From: Planctomycetia bacterium
Lineage (GTDB): Bacteria; Planctomycetota; Planctomycetia; Pirellulales; UBA1268
Reading direction: 5' to 3'
NCBI GenBank assembly: GCA_014192425.1
Contig: BJHK01000025.1
Span: forward strand, 1-49,684
DNA: 49,684 nucleotides
Positions within the stretch are counted from its first letter, which is position 1; every line of letters begins with the position of its first letter. The position numbers and the translations under genes were made by a program. The notes under the pieces were generated by a model. That model was not told the DNA's origin. It worked only from the letters and a program-made list of their open reading frames with translations, and made no database searches. This document shows positions 4,196-49,684 of the stretch, piece by piece.

Positions 4196-4524
4196 GCGGG
4201 TCGCGACGCGAGAAGATCGAGGCCTTGCTGCGGGACGATCCCGACGACGTCTTCCTGCGCTACAGCCTCGCCCTCGAGCTGCTCGGCGGCGACGAGTGGC
4301 CGACGGGTCTCGACATGCTCGAGGCCCTCTCCCGGGGCACGCCCCCGTACGTGCCGGCCTTCCACATGGCCGCCAGGCACCTCGTCCAGCGCGGCCGCAC
4401 CGAGGATGCCCGCCGCGCCCTCCGCGAGGGGATCGAGGCGGCCCGCGGCCAGGGAGAGTCACACGCCGCAGGCGAGATGGCTGAACTGCTGATGAGCCTC
4501 GGGGAGTTCCCCGAGGAGGCCTGA
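4192..4524 (+). CDS. Small TPR-like protein
   Basis: 110 residues. The protein looks all-helical, with paired helices resembling tetratricopeptide repeats: FLRYSLALELLGG (about 20-32), VPAFHMAARHLVQRGRTEDA (about 55-75) and a third helical stretch ending in AELLMSLGEF. No signal peptide, so probably cytoplasmic and a protein-protein adaptor. The ATG overlaps the end of the upstream secreted-protein gene. Partner unknown. Confidence 0.75.
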   Translation: MSGSRREKIEALLRDDPDDVFLRYSLALELLGGDEWPTGLDMLEALSRGTPPYVPAFHMAARHLVQRGRTEDARRALREGIEAARGQGESHAAGEMAELLMSLGEFPEEA

Positions 4525-42902: not shown

Positions 42903-45284
42903 TCATGGCTTGAGCAGCTCGAACGTGATTTTCTCGATCGTACCCGTGAATGCGAACGTGCCTTTGTAATCGGGACTGATGGGGGTGATCGAGTCGCGGC
43001 CGACCTCGAACGGCTCCAAGCCGTGGCGGAAGATCGAACGCTTTACTTTGCCTTCGCCGGCGGGCTTTCCGTTCACGAGCAGCTTGAGCGTGCCTGCCCC
43101 TTCCTTACCACCGTCCGGTGTGAACTCCGTTTTCAACGTCACCTTGCCTTCAGGCAGGCTTTCCGTGCCGGGGATGGTCACGTCCGCAAGGTCGAAGAAC
43201 GTGTAGCGAAAAACAGGCTTGCCGCCCTTCACGTACAGCGACCAGCCGGCCGAGAACGCCCCGGCACAGGTCACGACTCCCTCCGCGCCGCCTTTGGGGA
43301 TGTTCAACTCGGCGGTGATGGTATGCCCGCGCGGAAAGAGCTGCGGGCCGATGGGTTCTGGCAACCACACGTTGTTCCCGAAATAGGCCCAGCTCGTCTT
43401 CGGTTCACCGGATTCGCGAAGCTTCGGGTCGAACCGCTCGGAGAAGCGTGGGTCGAACGGCAGCACGTCGTACTTCTTCGCCTCCTCCAGGAATTTGCCT
43501 TGGAGCTCTTTGAGTTTTTCCGGCATCTTCGCCGCGAGGTCGTCGGCCTGGCTGAAGTCCTCGTTGACGTTGTAAAGCTCCCACGGGGCTTTCTGGAAGT
43601 CCATGTTGCGGCCGAGCGTTTCCCACGGGAACCCGTACTTGCTGCACGCCACCCAGCCGTCGTGGTAGATCGCGCGGTTCGTGGCCAGTTCGAAGTACTG
43701 CGTCGTCCGCCGGTCCTTGGCCGTGGCGTCGTCGAACGAGTAGAGCATGCTCACGCCCTCGATCGGCTTCTGCACGATGCCGTTGACGACCTGCGGTTCG
43801 GGGATCTTGCAGGCTGCCAGGATCGTCGGCACAACGTCGATGACGTGATGGAACTGGTTGCGGATCTCACCCTTCGCCTTGATGCCGGCGGGCCAGTGAA
43901 CGACGAGCGGGTTGCGGGTGCCGCCGAAGTGGCTCGCCACTTGTTTGGTCCACTGGAATGGTGCATTCATGCACCACGCCCAGCCGACCGGGACGTGCGG
44001 CTCGCTCGTCGGCCCGCCGATCTCGTCGATCCGCTTGATTGTGCTCTCCAATCCCAGTTGCACGCCCAGTAGGCTGGCAACTTCGCTGAACGTGCCCTCC
44101 AGCCCGCCTTCGGCGCTGGCGCCGTTGTCGCCGACGACATACATGACGAGGGTGTTGTCGAGTTCACCGGAGGTCCGCAGGCTTTCGATGAGTCGGCCGA
44201 CTTCGGCATCGGTATAGGCCATGTATGCGGCGTAGTTCTCCATCAGCCGGGTGTAGACCTTCTTCGCATCCGCCTTCTGCTCGTCCCAGGCGGCGACTTC
44301 CTTCGGCCGTGGCGTGAGTTTGGTTCCCTTCGGGATGATGCCCATCTCCAACTGCTTGGCGTGGGTCAGTTCGCGCTGTTTGTCCCAGCCGTGGTCGAAC
44401 TTGCCCGCGTACTTCTCGCGCCATTCCTTCGGGGCGTGATGTGGGGCGTGGACGCCGGACGTGCTGAAGTAGTTGAACCACGGCTTGTCGGGGCTGGCGG
44501 CCCGAATATTCCGCGTCCAGGCGATCGCCTCGTCGGTCATGTCGGCGGTAAAGTGGTAGCCCTGCTCCGGCGTCTTCGGCTGTGGTGTCCAGGTGGTGTT
44601 GCGGTAGATCGTCGGATGGTACTGGTGCGTCTCGCCCTGGTTGAAGCCGTAGAAGGAGTCGAACCCGAGGCCGGTCGGCCAGCGGTCGAACGGGCCGGCG
44701 GGGCTGATGTCCGGCTCCGGTGTGTTGTGCCACTTGCCGAACATGCCGGTGGCGTAGCCGTTGTCGCGCAACATCTGCGAAACCAGGGCCGTACTCTTGG
44801 GCACGATGCCCGTGTAGCCGGGGAAACCGGTGCCCATTTCGATGATGACACCGGTGGCGCAACTATGGTGGTTGCGGCCGGCGAGCAGAGCCCCGCGTGT
44901 CGGGCTGCACAAGGCGGTGGTGTGGAACCGGGTGTACTTCAGCCCGTTGTTCGCCAGCTTGTCCATGTGCGGCGTCGATACGGGCCCGCCGAACGTGGAG
45001 CACATACCGAAGCCGACGTCATCGAGCAGGATAAGCAGCACGTTCGGGCAGCCTTTCGCCGCCTTGGCAGGGCGCGGGAAACTCGGCGTGGAGTCTTTGT
45101 AGGTTTCGGCGATCTTGCCCGTGAACTCGGGATCGGGCTTGGGAAGTTGTGAGCCATCCGCCAGGGGCGGTTTGGCCTTACTGTCTTGGGCGGACGCCTC
45201 GGTCAGGCGGCCGAACGCGGCCAGCCAACCGAGCGCACAGCCGACCGCAACGAACGCGGCTGAGAGAAGGAATCGCGAACGCAT
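42903..45284 (-). CDS. Arylsulfatase-type sulfatase, long form
   Basis: 793 residues. AGGAG upstream of the ATG. Signal peptide (LLSAAFVAVGCALGWLAAFG). The catalytic formylglycine motif is LCSPTRGALLAGR (Cys about 120), preceded by NVLLILLDDVGFG with metal-binding Asp residues; other active-site parts are GKWHNTPE and SGVHAPHHAPKEW. About 200 C-terminal residues look beta rich. It likely hydrolyses sulfate esters, for example of algal polysaccharides, after export and maturation by FGE or anSME, neither of which is here. Lower G+C than the genes to its left, and just distal to the cassette array. Confidence 0.93.
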   Translation of the reverse strand: MRSRFLLSAAFVAVGCALGWLAAFGRLTEASAQDSKAKPPLADGSQLPKPDPEFTGKIAETYKDSTPSFPRPAKAAKGCPNVLLILLDDVGFGMCSTFGGPVSTPHMDKLANNGLKYTRFHTTALCSPTRGALLAGRNHHSCATGVIIEMGTGFPGYTGIVPKSTALVSQMLRDNGYATGMFGKWHNTPEPDISPAGPFDRWPTGLGFDSFYGFNQGETHQYHPTIYRNTTWTPQPKTPEQGYHFTADMTDEAIAWTRNIRAASPDKPWFNYFSTSGVHAPHHAPKEWREKYAGKFDHGWDKQRELTHAKQLEMGIIPKGTKLTPRPKEVAAWDEQKADAKKVYTRLMENYAAYMAYTDAEVGRLIESLRTSGELDNTLVMYVVGDNGASAEGGLEGTFSEVASLLGVQLGLESTIKRIDEIGGPTSEPHVPVGWAWCMNAPFQWTKQVASHFGGTRNPLVVHWPAGIKAKGEIRNQFHHVIDVVPTILAACKIPEPQVVNGIVQKPIEGVSMLYSFDDATAKDRRTTQYFELATNRAIYHDGWVACSKYGFPWETLGRNMDFQKAPWELYNVNEDFSQADDLAAKMPEKLKELQGKFLEEAKKYDVLPFDPRFSERFDPKLRESGEPKTSWAYFGNNVWLPEPIGPQLFPRGHTITAELNIPKGGAEGVVTCAGAFSAGWSLYVKGGKPVFRYTFFDLADVTIPGTESLPEGKVTLKTEFTPDGGKEGAGTLKLLVNGKPAGEGKVKRSIFRHGLEPFEVGRDSITPISPDYKGTFAFTGTIEKITFELLKP

Positions 45285-45346: not shown

Positions 45347-45443
45347 GCCGAACGACGAACCTCAGCAGCGGCGGGGGCAGAGTGAGTCGTGAAATCCAGA
45401 TAGCCTACATGCCCCCGGTGTCTGCTGCAGCGTTTTGTTGGGC
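45347..45443 (-). other. attC recombination site 1
   Basis: 97 bp. Boxes on the plus strand: GCCGAAC (45347-45353) and GTTGGGC (45437-45443; fits GTTRRRY). The arms pair through CTCAGCAG / CTGCTGCAG and again through GGGGGCA / TGCCCCC, with two unpaired bases on the right arm. It lies at the 3' end of the truncated sulfatase, whose stop codon falls inside it. Confidence 0.8.
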
Positions 45444-46667
45444 CAGCCTTTCGCGTGGAAAGAGTGTTGCCACCCAGAGACTTCCCGTCACTTCTTCGGA
45501 ATCACCGGCTTTGTTCTCATGCGGCGATGGCTTACCCTCACCGATGGTGGCCATGGCGTCCTTCCCGTCGAACGGCTTGGTGGGGTCGCCCGTACCGCCA
45601 GCAAGTGCCAGCAATGTCGGCATGACATCGACATGGTGCAGCGGTTCGTTCACCACACAGGGTTTGAGTTTCGCCGGCCAATTGACGATCGCCGGCAACC
45701 TGACGCCGCCTTCATGTAGGCCGCCTTTACCGCCGGTAAACGGGGTGTTCGTGGCCGGCGGCTTGGAGCCGAGGGCGACACCCCCGCTGGCCTCGCGCTC
45801 TTCCGGCGACCGCGCCCCCGTGGCGAAGAGCGCGCTGGTAGCCCCACCGTTGTCAGTGGTGAAAAGGATCAGCGTGTTCTCGCGCATCCCCTTCTTCTCC
45901 AGAGCGGCGACGACGCGGCCCACCTGTGCGTCCAGTCCGCTGATCATTGCGGCGTACTCGCGGTGCTCCTTGTCTGGGAAGATCTCCCGATAGGCGTCCG
46001 CGTCCTCCTTCGGAGCCTGATACGGAGCGTGCGGCGCAAGGGACGCGAAGTACAGGAACATCGGCTTCGACTTGTCGTGCTTCTCGATCAGGCCGACCGC
46101 CTCGTCGCCGATTTGTGTGGTGTAGTAGCCGTCCTCCCTGAGGAAGGTTCCGTTACGCTGCCAGTCGACCACCCCGCCACGGTCCTTCGTGAAGTAGTCG
46201 ACCTCGCCAACGACGTTTCCATAGAAGTGGTCGAACCCTCGGCTATTCGGCCAGTACTTCTTGTCCGCATGGCCGAGGTGCCACTTGCCGACCATATACG
46301 TGCTGTAGCCGATCTCCTTGAGGGCTTGGGGAAGCGTCTTTTCGTCGGCCGGAAGGCCGTACTTGTGGCTGGGAAAGATGACCAGCGTCTGTAACCCGTG
46401 CCTCATCGGATAGCGGCCAGTCAGTAAGGCAGCGCGGGCCGGGGTGCAGAGCGGCAGGCCGTAGTACGATTCGAGGCGCACCCCGTCCTTCGCCAGGATG
46501 TCAATGTTTGGAGTTTTGATCTTGCTGCCGCGGCAGCCGAGGTCGGCGTTGCCGAGGTCATCTGCAAGGATGATGACAATGTTCGGCTTGTCCGCGGCCC
46601 ATGCGGCGCGAGACCCGCAACTGAAGGCCGCAGCGAAGACAGCAAAGATCACACGGAATCGAATCAC
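45405..46667 (-). CDS. Sulfatase in an integron cassette, C-terminally truncated
   Basis: 420 residues from GTG 46667 with a GGAG site about 11 bases upstream. Signal peptide (VIFAVFAAAFSCGSRAAWA), NIVIILADDLGNADLG, the formylglycine motif LCTPARAALLTGR (Cys about 75), GKWHLGH and FTTDNGG are intact. After GEGKPSPHE (about 375) the sequence no longer resembles sulfatases: the usual C-terminal subdomain of roughly 80-100 residues is missing, and the last 12 residues are read from attC (45347-45443). The start lies 33 bp from the neighbouring attC, as for the other cassettes. Activity is doubtful. Confidence 0.88.
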   Translation of the reverse strand: MIRFRVIFAVFAAAFSCGSRAAWAADKPNIVIILADDLGNADLGCRGSKIKTPNIDILAKDGVRLESYYGLPLCTPARAALLTGRYPMRHGLQTLVIFPSHKYGLPADEKTLPQALKEIGYSTYMVGKWHLGHADKKYWPNSRGFDHFYGNVVGEVDYFTKDRGGVVDWQRNGTFLREDGYYTTQIGDEAVGLIEKHDKSKPMFLYFASLAPHAPYQAPKEDADAYREIFPDKEHREYAAMISGLDAQVGRVVAALEKKGMRENTLILFTTDNGGATSALFATGARSPEEREASGGVALGSKPPATNTPFTGGKGGLHEGGVRLPAIVNWPAKLKPCVVNEPLHHVDVMPTLLALAGGTGDPTKPFDGKDAMATIGEGKPSPHENKAGDSEEVTGSLWVATLFPRERLAQQNAAADTGGM

Positions 46668-46700
46668 GATGCCATCTCCTCAAGAGTGCGAACGTCTGAT

Positions 46701-46790
46701 GCCGAACGGCGGCGATCAGCGGCTCGCGACCCACGGGCCAGCAATCACGCACGACGACTCCCGCGAGGCCATTGCATCGCGTGGTTAGTC
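46701..46790 (-). other. attC recombination site 2
   Basis: 90 bp, boxes GCCGAAC (46701) and GTTAGTC (46784-46790), both one mismatch from consensus. Arms GCGATCAGCGGCTCGCGA and CGCGAGGCCATTGCATCGC pair with two unpaired bases on the right arm. The TAA stop of the 113-residue gene is formed within the R'' box. Confidence 0.8.
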
Positions 46791-47126
46791 CTTGAGGATC
46801 CACCGTGGCAGCGGAATCGCCTCGCTTCTTGCAGCTATCAAAAGAACGCCTGAGGCAAGCACGAGCACGGGTATCTCGACTTCCACTTTCAATACACCCA
46901 TCTGCCGCAACACGGACAGCACGCTCGCAAGGCCGAAGAAACCCGCGATAACGAATGAAACTTTGTCGAAGCCGGAAAGCACAATCGCGAGGACGCCAAC
47001 GACAGCGAGCGCCAGGGACCAAGCCCAGTCGACAGTCGGGATAAAGCCGAGACTGCTGAGCAGCCAGCCGCCGCCTACTGCGACGAGCAGAACCCCGAGA
47101 ATCAGTGACGTCCGATCTTGTTGCAT
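46785..47126 (-). CDS. Cassette gene: small membrane protein
   Basis: 113 residues, hydrophobic, about four helices: SLILGVLLVAVGGGWLLSSL, WSLALAVVGVLAIVLSG, FVIAGFFGLASVLSVL and IPVLVLASGVLLIAA. The pattern of paired short helices with a Gly-rich start resembles LiaF/DUF5668-type membrane domains, without proof. It begins 20 bp after attC 3 and its TAA stop sits in the R'' box of attC 2, typical of compact cassettes. Confidence 0.78.
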   Translation of the reverse strand: MQQDRTSLILGVLLVAVGGGWLLSSLGFIPTVDWAWSLALAVVGVLAIVLSGFDKVSFVIAGFFGLASVLSVLRQMGVLKVEVEIPVLVLASGVLLIAARSEAIPLPRWILKD

Positions 47127-47146
47127 GGGAAAAGTCTCTCAGGGTG

Positions 47147-47236
47147 GGCTAACGACCGGCGATCAGCAGCTCGCCGCTCTTGGATTATGCCTACCGCAGG
47201 ACGTTAGGGCGAGGCTGCTGCATCGCTTGGTTCTGC
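47147..47236 (-). other. attC recombination site 3
   Basis: 90 bp, boxes GGCTAAC (47147) and GTTCTGC (47230-47236, degenerate). Arms GGCGATCAGCAGCTCGCC and GGCGAGGCTGCTGCATCGC pair perfectly except for two unpaired bases. It ends the 210-residue cassette, 26 bp after that gene's stop. Confidence 0.8.
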
Positions 47237-47262
47237 CTGCGCGCTATTCCGATTGACGACGC

Positions 47263-47895
47263 TCACTGCGTTGTTTCAAGGATAACCGGGAACGCGATTA
47301 CCTTGCGATCGTTGGGCAATCCCTCGTACGCCAAGGGCTCGTTGCTCAAACTGAATCCGGAAGCTGACGAGCGGACGACATACTTGGAACTGAGGCTTTG
47401 AGTAGTCCGAGCCCAGCTGAATTTGGTGCTCAGCTTGAGACGGGCGTTGAATCGGGCGACACCAAGCCCATCGGACAGACCTTCACCAACAGGGTCGCCG
47501 GATGCTGCATCGATAATCTGACATCTTGCACCGGCAACTGCGGCTCCATCGCGATCGTGCACCTCGCACACGATCGGAACGGATTCTTCGCCCATGGCCG
47601 ACCAGTACTCAGCGTTCAAAGCGATACCGGCACCAGTCGCGCCAATAGCGGCTATCAACAGTCCCAATAGGCGCTTTGACTGCGACCGAAAGCAGACAAC
47701 GGCACCGGCGACCAGAAGAGCGACACCGATTCCGAAGATCGCTAGATAAGGGAACCACGGGGCGAACATCAGATAAAAGTTGAACGCCAACATCGCGGGT
47801 AGAATCGCGAAAAGACCGATGAACAGGGTGGCGTTCGCGAGGGATGCCGTGTGTTCCGGAAGTGCAGAGCTCGGGTTGTGAGGCGGCGAGTTCAT
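47263..47895 (-). CDS. Cassette gene: membrane protein with Ig-like domain
   Basis: 210 residues. Three helices in the first 95 residues (LANATLFIGLFAILPAMLAF; YLAIFGIGVALLVAGAVVC; LLGLLIAAIGATGAGIAL), then an exposed domain with VPIVCEVHDRDGAAVAGARC and GLSDGLGVARFNARLK, which looks like a carboxypeptidase regulatory-like (Ig) fold. The ATG is 26 bp after attC 4. Two Cys in the domain may pair. Function unknown. Confidence 0.78.
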   Translation of the reverse strand: MNSPPHNPSSALPEHTASLANATLFIGLFAILPAMLAFNFYLMFAPWFPYLAIFGIGVALLVAGAVVCFRSQSKRLLGLLIAAIGATGAGIALNAEYWSAMGEESVPIVCEVHDRDGAAVAGARCQIIDAASGDPVGEGLSDGLGVARFNARLKLSTKFSWARTTQSLSSKYVVRSSASGFSLSNEPLAYEGLPNDRKVIAFPVILETTQ

Positions 47896-47921
47896 GGAAG
47901 GCGACGATGGCTCACTTCTCG

Positions 47922-48010
47922 GCAGAACGCTCGCGATCAGCGGCTCGCGACCAAGGGATTATCCACACCGTCGGATTTTATCGCGAGTCCGCTGCATCGC
48001 TTAGTTGGAC
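47922..48010 (-). other. attC recombination site 4
   Basis: 89 bp, boxes GCAGAAC (47922) and GTTGGAC (48004-48010). Arms GCGATCAGCGGCTCGCGA and TCGCGAGTCCGCTGCATCGC pair with two unpaired bases. The central part (GGATTATCCACACCG) is nearly the same as in site 6. The methyltransferase ORF runs through most of it. Confidence 0.85.
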
Positions 48011-48821
48011 GATTAGCCTTGGGCGCTTGCCCCATCACGACCTGAAATGTGTCGCGGACGACGAAGTCCGCGGGGGTCGCAGCGGCAAGGGACCGCTCAA
48101 GTTGTTTCTGAATGCCTGCAATTCGACTGGCGCGAAGACACTTCACATCCACGTAGCTCCAAATCAGCGCTGCACACAGCTCAGCAGAGAGTCGCCGCCG
48201 ACGGCTATAAGTTTTTCGCCGACAGTTGAGAAAGCCCCTATTCCGGGAAAAGTCCGCGTAGCCCGTGGCAAACAGATTGCGAACCTCGCGGGTGGGACGC
48301 GGTATCCAAAACTCCGGCACATACGGCACGATCACATCCCCAATAATTTCGTAGACCGCGTCCGTGAAGGTCGGTTGGTGCCAGATCCCCAAAAACCAGC
48401 CGCCTGGCTTGAGAAGTGAGAAGATCCGTCCGTAGAAAACCTCTCGGGGAATCCAGTGGAGAGCGCTTGCAGCCACGACGAGGTCATACCGCTGCGCGGT
48501 TCTGAAGGCCTCGAAAGTCGTCTGGTGGATGTGCGTATCTGCGGCGTCGCGGTAACGTCGACGCAGCAGCCGCGCAAAGGCGGGACCGGGTTCAAGGACG
48601 TCGAGATGAAGAGCGTGGGTCAGCAACTGCTCCGTCGCTTGCCCCGACCCTGCGCCTACCTCAAGAACATGACGCAGCTTCCGACCCGATAGGCCGTTTT
48701 TCCGCATCGTCGCCACCGCGTCCCTGAAGCTGATCTCGGGATACGAAGGCCTCGCCGCATCGTACTCCTTGGCGACCAGCGCGAATGCCAGTTTTCCGCG
48801 AATATCAGTGTTGAAAAACAT
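47937..48821 (-). CDS. Cassette gene: class I SAM-dependent methyltransferase
   Basis: 294 residues. SAM motif I is VLEVGAGSGQATEQLL (about 52-67), followed by LDVLEPGPAFA (motif II), YDLVVAASALHWIP (about 112-125) and LLKPGGWFLGIW. N-terminal AKEYDAARPSYP is common in Methyltransf_11/25 proteins. Substrate unknown. The ATG lies 14 bp after attC 5. The last 23 or so residues are translated from attC 4 itself and so are probably not functional sequence. Confidence 0.85.
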   Translation of the reverse strand: MFFNTDIRGKLAFALVAKEYDAARPSYPEISFRDAVATMRKNGLSGRKLRHVLEVGAGSGQATEQLLTHALHLDVLEPGPAFARLLRRRYRDAADTHIHQTTFEAFRTAQRYDLVVAASALHWIPREVFYGRIFSLLKPGGWFLGIWHQPTFTDAVYEIIGDVIVPYVPEFWIPRPTREVRNLFATGYADFSRNRGFLNCRRKTYSRRRRLSAELCAALIWSYVDVKCLRASRIAGIQKQLERSLAAATPADFVVRDTFQVVMGQAPKANRPTKRCSGLAIKSDGVDNPLVASR

Positions 48822-48835
48822 GGGCCACTTCTATC

Positions 48836-48924
48836 GTCCAACGGCTGCCTTCAGCAGATCGCAGCCAATCGATTCTCAATACCGCAGGATGTCATCGCGA
48901 TTCTGCTGCAAGGCTTTGTTAGGC
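48836..48924 (-). other. attC recombination site 5
   Basis: 89 bp with consensus boxes GTCCAAC (48836) and GTTAGGC (48918-48924). Arms GCCTTCAGCAGATCGC and GCGATTCTGCTGCAAGGC pair with two unpaired bases on the right. It ends the 187-residue cassette. Confidence 0.88.
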
Positions 48925-48946
48925 ATTCCTGGTCAAGACCCCGACC

Positions 48947-49510
48947 CTATTCTGCGCGAGCTTTCTCCAACTCGGCCAGCAGCTTCAAAAGCCGATCTCG
49001 AGCTCGCATAATCTCGGCTTGCCAGTCGTCGTTGTTGATTAGGAACTGCTTGTTGCCGGAGATAAGTTGGGCATAGGACTGAAACAGAGATCCTGCTGCA
49101 GTGATCTCAGCAGCCCGTAGTGCCGTGGCGGCATGAGCGGCTTGCGCTTCAGCTTGCCTGGCCAGTTCGTCACGAGTCTGCGCCAATTCAATGCGCTGAA
49201 GGGCAAGTTCCTTCCGCTGTAGGAGCAACGTATAGGCGAGTGCGGCAAACGCTAGACCAGAAAAGAAAGTGTTCAGCGCACCAAACATGTCCCCAAACTG
49301 ACCTCGGCTACTCCAATCGTTGAATACTCCGGAGAGCACCAGACCGTAAGCGATGGCGACCACGGTGATACCGAGCGCCCCAAGCCCCAGCGGCCATAGA
49401 GGTTCTGTGGCGAGATTTGTCCTGTTGAGCTGGGTATCGGCGTCGTTCATGGCGTGGATTCCACGGGACTCATCGCCTGTGAATTGAGGTGGACGGGCAA
49501 CCACAGTCAT
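48947..49510 (-). CDS. Cassette gene: membrane protein with coiled coil
   Basis: 187 residues from ATG 49510, preferred because it is 43 bp from attC 6, like the short leaders of the other cassettes; ATG 49450 is an alternative. Two helices (LGALGITVVAIAYGLVLSGVF, about 43-63, and LNTFFSGLAFAALAYTLLL, about 79-97) are followed by a long charged helix (QRKELALQRIELAQTRDELA...) predicted to form a coiled coil, with a Lys/Glu-rich end. This plan is frequent in phage-defence and cassette genes of unknown role, but no function is shown. Confidence 0.75.
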   Translation of the reverse strand: MTVVARPPQFTGDESRGIHAMNDADTQLNRTNLATEPLWPLGLGALGITVVAIAYGLVLSGVFNDWSSRGQFGDMFGALNTFFSGLAFAALAYTLLLQRKELALQRIELAQTRDELARQAEAQAAHAATALRAAEITAAGSLFQSYAQLISGNKQFLINNDDWQAEIMRARDRLLKLLAELEKARAE

Positions 49511-49524
49511 CGCGATGCCAACAC

Positions 49525-49542
49525 GGCTCTGGCTCTGGCTCT
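49525..49542. repeat. Short 6-bp tandem repeat
   Basis: Three copies of GGCTCT stand between attC 6 and the start of the 187-residue cassette gene. Probably a chance microsatellite. Confidence 0.6.
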
Positions 49543-49553
49543 GGCATCCTGTT

Positions 49554-49641
49554 GCCTAACGCCGCCGATCAGCGGCTCGCGACCTTGGATTATCCACACC
49601 GACCGATTTTATCGCGAGTCCGCTGCATCGGCTTGTTAGAC
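49554..49641 (-). other. attC recombination site 6
   Basis: 88 bp with consensus boxes GCCTAAC (49554) and GTTAGAC (49635-49641). Arms GCCGATCAGCGGCTCGCGA and TCGCGAGTCCGCTGCATCGG pair with two unpaired bases. It belongs to a cassette whose gene lies beyond the window edge; only 43 bp of that cassette's remainder is visible. Confidence 0.88.
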
Positions 49642-49684
49642 CGGGCCGGATCGTAGGGGTGATACATTCATGCTATCTGTGGCT

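Follow-up and report, generated by a model that had tools for sequence, protein, structure and literature searches.

Evidence for a chromosomal integron cassette array in a planctomycete genome that encodes two integron integrases

Six attC sites and five gene cassettes at the end of the contig

The window, by which we mean the whole stretch of DNA that was analysed (49.7 kb), is contig C25 of a genome (G000) of 3.98 Mb in 70 contigs. The genome contains 13 loci of the planctomycete-type PSD1 family, none of which was detected in 14 control genomes, in agreement with the planctomycete-like character assigned in the first-pass annotation. Between position 45347 and its right end, the window carries six sites with the anatomy of attC recombination sites, each 88-97 bp long and oriented, like the genes, along the minus strand. 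Read on that strand, every site follows the plan R''-spacer-L''-variable centre-L'-spacer-R', and the sites enclose five cassettes, each with a single ORF on the minus strand. The features are listed below from the right end of the contig; scores were obtained with a paired-arm scorer (described in the next section), E-values with a covariance model built from the attC sites of the genome itself, and the core match is the complementarity between neighbouring sites that is treated further below.

49554..49641, minus strand: attC site 6, the upstream-most; score 52.1 (window maximum), E=3e-27; R''=GTCTAAC, R'=GTTAGGC
48842..49559, minus strand: cassette 5, including attC site 5; ORF 48947-49510, 187-aa predicted membrane/coiled-coil protein; core match 7/7
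48836..48924, minus strand: attC site 5; score 42.1, E=3e-25; R''=GCCTAAC, R'=GTTGGAC
47928..48841, minus strand: cassette 4; ORF 47937-48821, class I SAM methyltransferase domain (Methyltransf_12, E=1e-12); core match 7/7
47922..48010, minus strand: attC site 4; score 31.5, E=6e-27; R''=GTCCAAC, R'=GTTCTGC
47153..47927, minus strand: cassette 3; ORF 47263-47895, 210-aa protein with a weak MG3-like match only; core match 7/7
47147..47236, minus strand: attC site 3; score 27.7, E=2e-20; R''=GCAGAAC, R'=GTTAGCC
46707..47152, minus strand: cassette 2; ORF 46785-47126, 113-aa LiaF-TM-like membrane protein; core match 6/7
46701..46790, minus strand: attC site 2; score 28.4, E=5e-18; R''=GACTAAC, R'=GTTCGGC
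45353..46706, minus strand: cassette 1, distal; ORF 45405-46667, 420-aa sulfatase (PF00884, E=7e-65); core match 6/7
45347..45443, minus strand: attC site 1; score 32.1, E=5e-5; R''=GCCCAAC, R'=GTTCGGC
42903..45284, minus strand: second sulfatase gene (PF00884, E=6e-64), directly past the last attC

The stop codon of cassette 4 lies within attC site 4, and the match of the cassette 2 protein to LiaF-TM (E=2e-4) is under the gathering score. Site 1 is the last and most diverged attC of the array (29.7 bits with the genome covariance model). Neither the paired-arm scorer nor this model found an attC below 45347, and the second sulfatase gene, whose own 3' end has no attC, is either the boundary of the array or a degenerate terminal cassette.

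Cassettes on other contigs of the genome encode HicA-like, ParE-like, DUF4279 and DUF4345 proteins. The contents include toxin-antitoxin and function-unassigned proteins; no resistance cassettes were noticed among the cassettes viewed. Compared with other genomes, the attC sites are up to 91% identical, while the cassette genes are hardly shared: among the window cassettes, only cassette 2 was found, as DNA, in a relative (G016, 74%).

Detection and anatomy of the attC sites

A covariance model of known attC sites, from which the variable centre had been trimmed, missed the sites of the window, most likely because of this trimming, and a paired-arm scorer that leaves the centre free was therefore built. 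It scores both arms and 14 base pairs, and was trained on 15 attC sites, none of them from this organism, taken from annotated plasmid integrons (class 1 cassettes blaIMP, blaOXA-1, catB3, aadA2 and others; Vibrio sp. HDW18; the cyanobacterial Kovacikia), which were found by their cores and then aligned by their arms. When the scorer was run on both strands of the whole window, the top six places were exactly the six sites; the best scores apart from these were 31.2, given by one of the six read on the opposite strand, and then 25.2. The highest score in 200 dinucleotide shuffles was 34.3, and values of at least 28 arose at 0.04 per strand. Sites 2 and 3, each taken alone, lie near the tail of the shuffled background. 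An Rfam search gave no match, which carries little weight, as Rfam may hold no attC family. It should be added that the trimmed model recovered two short attC sites on contig C23 (E=1e-7 and 5e-6); these are 49-51 bp long, lie inside an array of long attC sites (C23:419-469 and 688-736), and score 32-39 bits with this model, which was made from class 1 and further known attC sites.

The first-pass annotation had described six sites of 88-97 bp with the attC plan and self-complementary arms, separating single-gene cassettes on one strand, and this description holds in each of these respects. The outer boxes, given there as near RYYYAAC/GTTRRRY, often read GTTCRRY instead of GTTRRRY, in most cases balanced by a G in the opposite box. 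Sites 4 and 6, which it had called nearly identical, are only 84.3% identical, and the other pairs share 46-69%.

Folding of the attC sites was analysed by covariation in a set of 27 attC sites from this genome and its relatives. Standard pairs occupied 92.4% of the pair cells, and changes on both sides of a pair were seen in 36 cells; shuffles gave 12.2 +/- 2.7 such cells, and slid registers gave 1-7. Compensatory changes include CAGCGG/CCGCTG versus CAGCAG/CTGCTG and, in the spacer stem, A-T and G-C pairs swapped to T-A and C-G. In the fold, the L'' arm has two unpaired bases, placed like the extrahelical bases of known attC sites.

Core linkage between neighbouring attC sites

Insertion of a circular cassette at G|TTRRRY leaves the R' box with six final bases that come from the cassette that follows, and R' should therefore complement the R'' box of the next attC better than that of its own site. 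In the window, the successive links between R' and the next R'' match at 7, 7, 7, 6 and 6 of 7 positions (33 of 35 in total), and the observed order of the sites is the best among the 120 permutations. Over all seven arrays, 19 of the 23 links are perfect, including all 14 in the arrays of contigs C23 and C2, and 156 of 161 positions are complementary; permuted links gave a mean of 124 and a maximum of 144, so that a value as high as the observed one did not occur in 100,000 permutations (p about 1e-5). The mean match between R' and R'' within a site is 5.4. This core linkage is the trace left by the insertion of circular cassettes at G|TT, and it is the strongest single evidence for an integron mechanism. 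The comparison of R' of site n with R'' of site n+1 is, moreover, a cheap check for circular-cassette insertion that can be used on fragmented genomes. All six sites of the window are genuine attC recombination sites.

attC sites in the rest of the genome

With the covariance model built from its own attC sites, 35 attC sites were found on eight contigs: 11 on C23, 7 on C2, 6 on C25 (the window), 4 on C4, 3 on C11, 2 on C1 (one weak), and 1 each on C28 and C6. They form a homogeneous family (65-78% mean column identity), and site 5 of the window shares 91-95% identity with four attC sites of C23. Several of the array contigs finish in array repeats. Identical ends of 127 bases, a typical assembler k-mer length, are present on C23 (1-127), C4 and C11, and consist of a cassette end and an attC. 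Contigs C23 and C11 are identical up to the GTT crossover core and then continue into different cassettes; a single cassette end therefore precedes several different cassettes, which we attribute to duplication or to population variants.

Two integron integrases and their attI sites

The window array is truncated by the end of the contig at 49684, and neither intI nor attI was found on the window's own contig. Both had been proposed as things to look for beyond the window, and were found elsewhere in the assembly, together with further arrays. Two integron integrases score above the curated cut-off of TIGR02249 (265 bits): IntI-A on contig C22 (460 bits) and IntI-B on C10 (420 bits). Both genes are intact ORFs, and the proteins are 48% identical to each other. 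The alignment of IntI-A with Vibrio IntI4 (2A3V, a solved structure) covers almost the full length and takes in both the integron-specific insert and the catalytic region at the C-terminus. The relatives of IntI-A are distant, with 60% identity at most. The layout of IntI-A is classical, and that of IntI-B is reverse, the gene being read towards its attI.

On both C22 and C10, an attI site adjoins intI. The sequence that precedes intI-A recurs on C33, there without intI; both copies are alike as far as CCGCCTAATRATTGTTC (ATTGTTC) and differ beyond it, and the C33 junction GTTCGGC complements the R'' box GCCGAAC of the attC of the following cassette. The attI-A site was defined on these grounds. 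The C33 copy of the attI-A/intI-promoter region extends over G000:C33:18430-18716 (L055:10431-10717), and is followed by a cassette and an attC that is cut by the contig end. A different attI site, ...CGGAACCGTAYAATTAAGAGTT, lies downstream of intI-B, and in the relative G016 the attI-B motif follows the end of intI at a distance of 264 bases. Further copies of this motif, with no integrase beside them, are present at G000:C9:125-290 and at about G000:C6:233270-233440. The copy on C6 keeps the linkage rule, the junction reading GTTCTCA and the attC of the cassette containing TGAGAAC; the gene of this cassette runs opposite to the usual polarity.

The predicted promoter of intI-A (G000:C22:297-336; L046), TTGACA-17-CATATT, contains GAACGCATGTTC, a candidate SOS box with a GAAC-N4-GTTC palindrome like that of the Gram-positive LexA box. 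The promoter of the genome's own lexA gene has a half-site only, and in the copy on C33 one half of GAACGCATGTTC is missing.

Integrons in related genomes

An integron integrase is encoded by 13 of the 21 members of the genus and by 3 of the 15 other members of the family, and matching attC sites were found in 31 of the 60 genomes searched, the present genome included. An intI gene contiguous with this kind of array was seen in relatives only. In G013 (contig C19), intI is followed on its 3' side by eight attC sites in the same direction, and in G027 (C9) by at least six; both are complete reverse integrons. G018 (C3) and G008 (C138) have the classical layout.

A quick version of an integrase tree was built from 102 non-Treponema integrases, with an array-side label that derives partly from where contigs stop and is to that extent a proxy. 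IntI-B falls into a group of 34 rows (SH-aLRT 96) in which the array side, partly by this proxy, is 3' in 30 and 5' in none, and IntI-A falls into a separate planctomycete group (SH-aLRT 99) that is mostly classical. With the same proxy in the array side, IntI-B has the reverse (Treponema-type) layout, in which intI is read towards attI in the same direction as the cassettes. The clade of IntI-B, in which the reverse-layout integrases come together, covers Acidobacteriota, Gemmatimonadota, Myxococcota, Planctomycetota and others.

Interpretation

The region from 45347 to the contig end is, with a probability of roughly 0.96, the distal portion of the cassette array of a chromosomal integron. 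The first-pass annotation, which had recognized an integron cassette array from the raw sequence, was correct: the array is genuine, as supported by the attC anatomy, polarity, fold and core linkage, by the presence of intI and attI in the genome, and by arrays of this kind beside intI in relatives. Its proposal of a sedentary chromosomal integron also fits, given the homogeneous attC family, the toxin-antitoxin and unassigned cassettes, and the intI genes of the genus. Because the window array is joined to neither intI in the assembly, it is, strictly speaking, an attC cluster with its integrase on another contig.

Integrons keep single genes as exchangeable cassettes, and each unit of this array is one minus-strand gene followed by an attC. 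An IntI protein would bind one folded strand of the attC (the bottom strand in known integrons), cut at G|TT of the R' box, excise the units as circles and insert them at attI or at another attC. IntI-A, IntI-B or both presumably act on the window array, the reaction probably using the bottom strand by analogy with characterised integrons, and both integrases are probably active at present.

The alternative that survives best, which we nevertheless regard as improbable, is that of a former integron decayed into an immobile, fossil cluster beyond the integrase's action. The contig without intI, the divergence of the last site (29.7 bits) and the two of five window links with 6/7 matches, against the uniformly perfect links of C23 and C2, would suit a fossil; the good stems and cores at most sites, the two intact intI genes above the curated cut-off, and the point just behind GTT at which C23 and C11 diverge, a sign that cassettes of the genome may have been shuffled recently, speak against it. 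That the integron is mobile, borne on a transposon or plasmid, is very unlikely: the distance of the relatives of IntI-A (no more than 60% identical) would be compatible with it, whereas array contigs that reach hundreds of kb, the spread of intI across the genus and family, and the homogeneous attC sites are not what it predicts. Finally, an interspersed palindromic repeat of the REP/BIME or MITE type that merely resembles attC would likewise be palindromic, intergenic and repeated (35 copies in the genome), and was rejected as barely credible, since the copies occur only in tandem arrays and not scattered, their polarity in the window is always that of the genes, the genome has integrases and attI sites, and the core-linkage rule, inexplicable for a transposed repeat, contradicts it.

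Elements of this kind are already known, as both planctomycete integrons and models of their attC sites have been published. Integrons in Planctomycetes were listed by 2008, with more than one intI noted in several genomes (PMC2426708), and Planctomycetes are among the taxa with sedentary chromosomal integrons and taxon-specific attC sites, numerous enough for a covariance model (Ghaly et al. 2021, PMC8352920). The present array resembles these sedentary integrons (PMC8352920) in its single-gene cassettes placed in tandem, in the R''/L''/L'/R' plan and homogeneity of its attC family, and in the TIGR02249-family IntI, but the genome differs in having two integrases and orphan attI copies. Class 1 integrons share the attC plan, and IntI-A is 52% identical to IntI1; the closest class 1 attC by eye is that of blaIMP-1 (TGCAGC / GCCGCTGA). 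Unlike class 1 integrons, the present system is chromosomal, with homogeneous attC sites and with no resistance cassettes seen. Reverse integrons were described in Treponema denticola and its relatives (PMC3607928, PMC4909258), whose intI branch clusters with the intI of Kuenenia and Blastopirellula (PMC3607928); IntI-B likewise reads towards attI and the cassettes, but here a second, classical integrase coexists with it. In a small literature search, no description was found of a single genome in which a classical and a reverse integrase share one attC family and in which intI-less attI copies are also present. The array is ordinary in kind and above average in context, the pairing of classical and reverse integrases being the interesting extra. 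We suggest, as a tentative reading that is somewhat more likely to fail than to hold, that the chromosome carries a distributed integron, in which a classical and a reverse integrase, from IntI clades that separated long ago, share a single attC family, with the orphan attI sites on C33, C9 and C6 as additional docking and expression points in trans. If this is true, such a genome, with a common pool of cassettes for two integrases of opposed layout and with attI sites to spare, would make it possible to study how integrase specificity and layout evolve.

Three minor observations may be added. An attC 91% identical to site 5 of the window is located at G047:C2:627946-628039, in a genome from another family of the same order, and may reflect cassette transfer. 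The left end of the window's contig (1-95) is an almost pure run of G, probably a sequencing artefact. Two identical stretches of 137 bases (G000:C16:3959-4095 and 4254-4390), 295 bases apart, lie near a XerC/D-like integrase at C16:4637.
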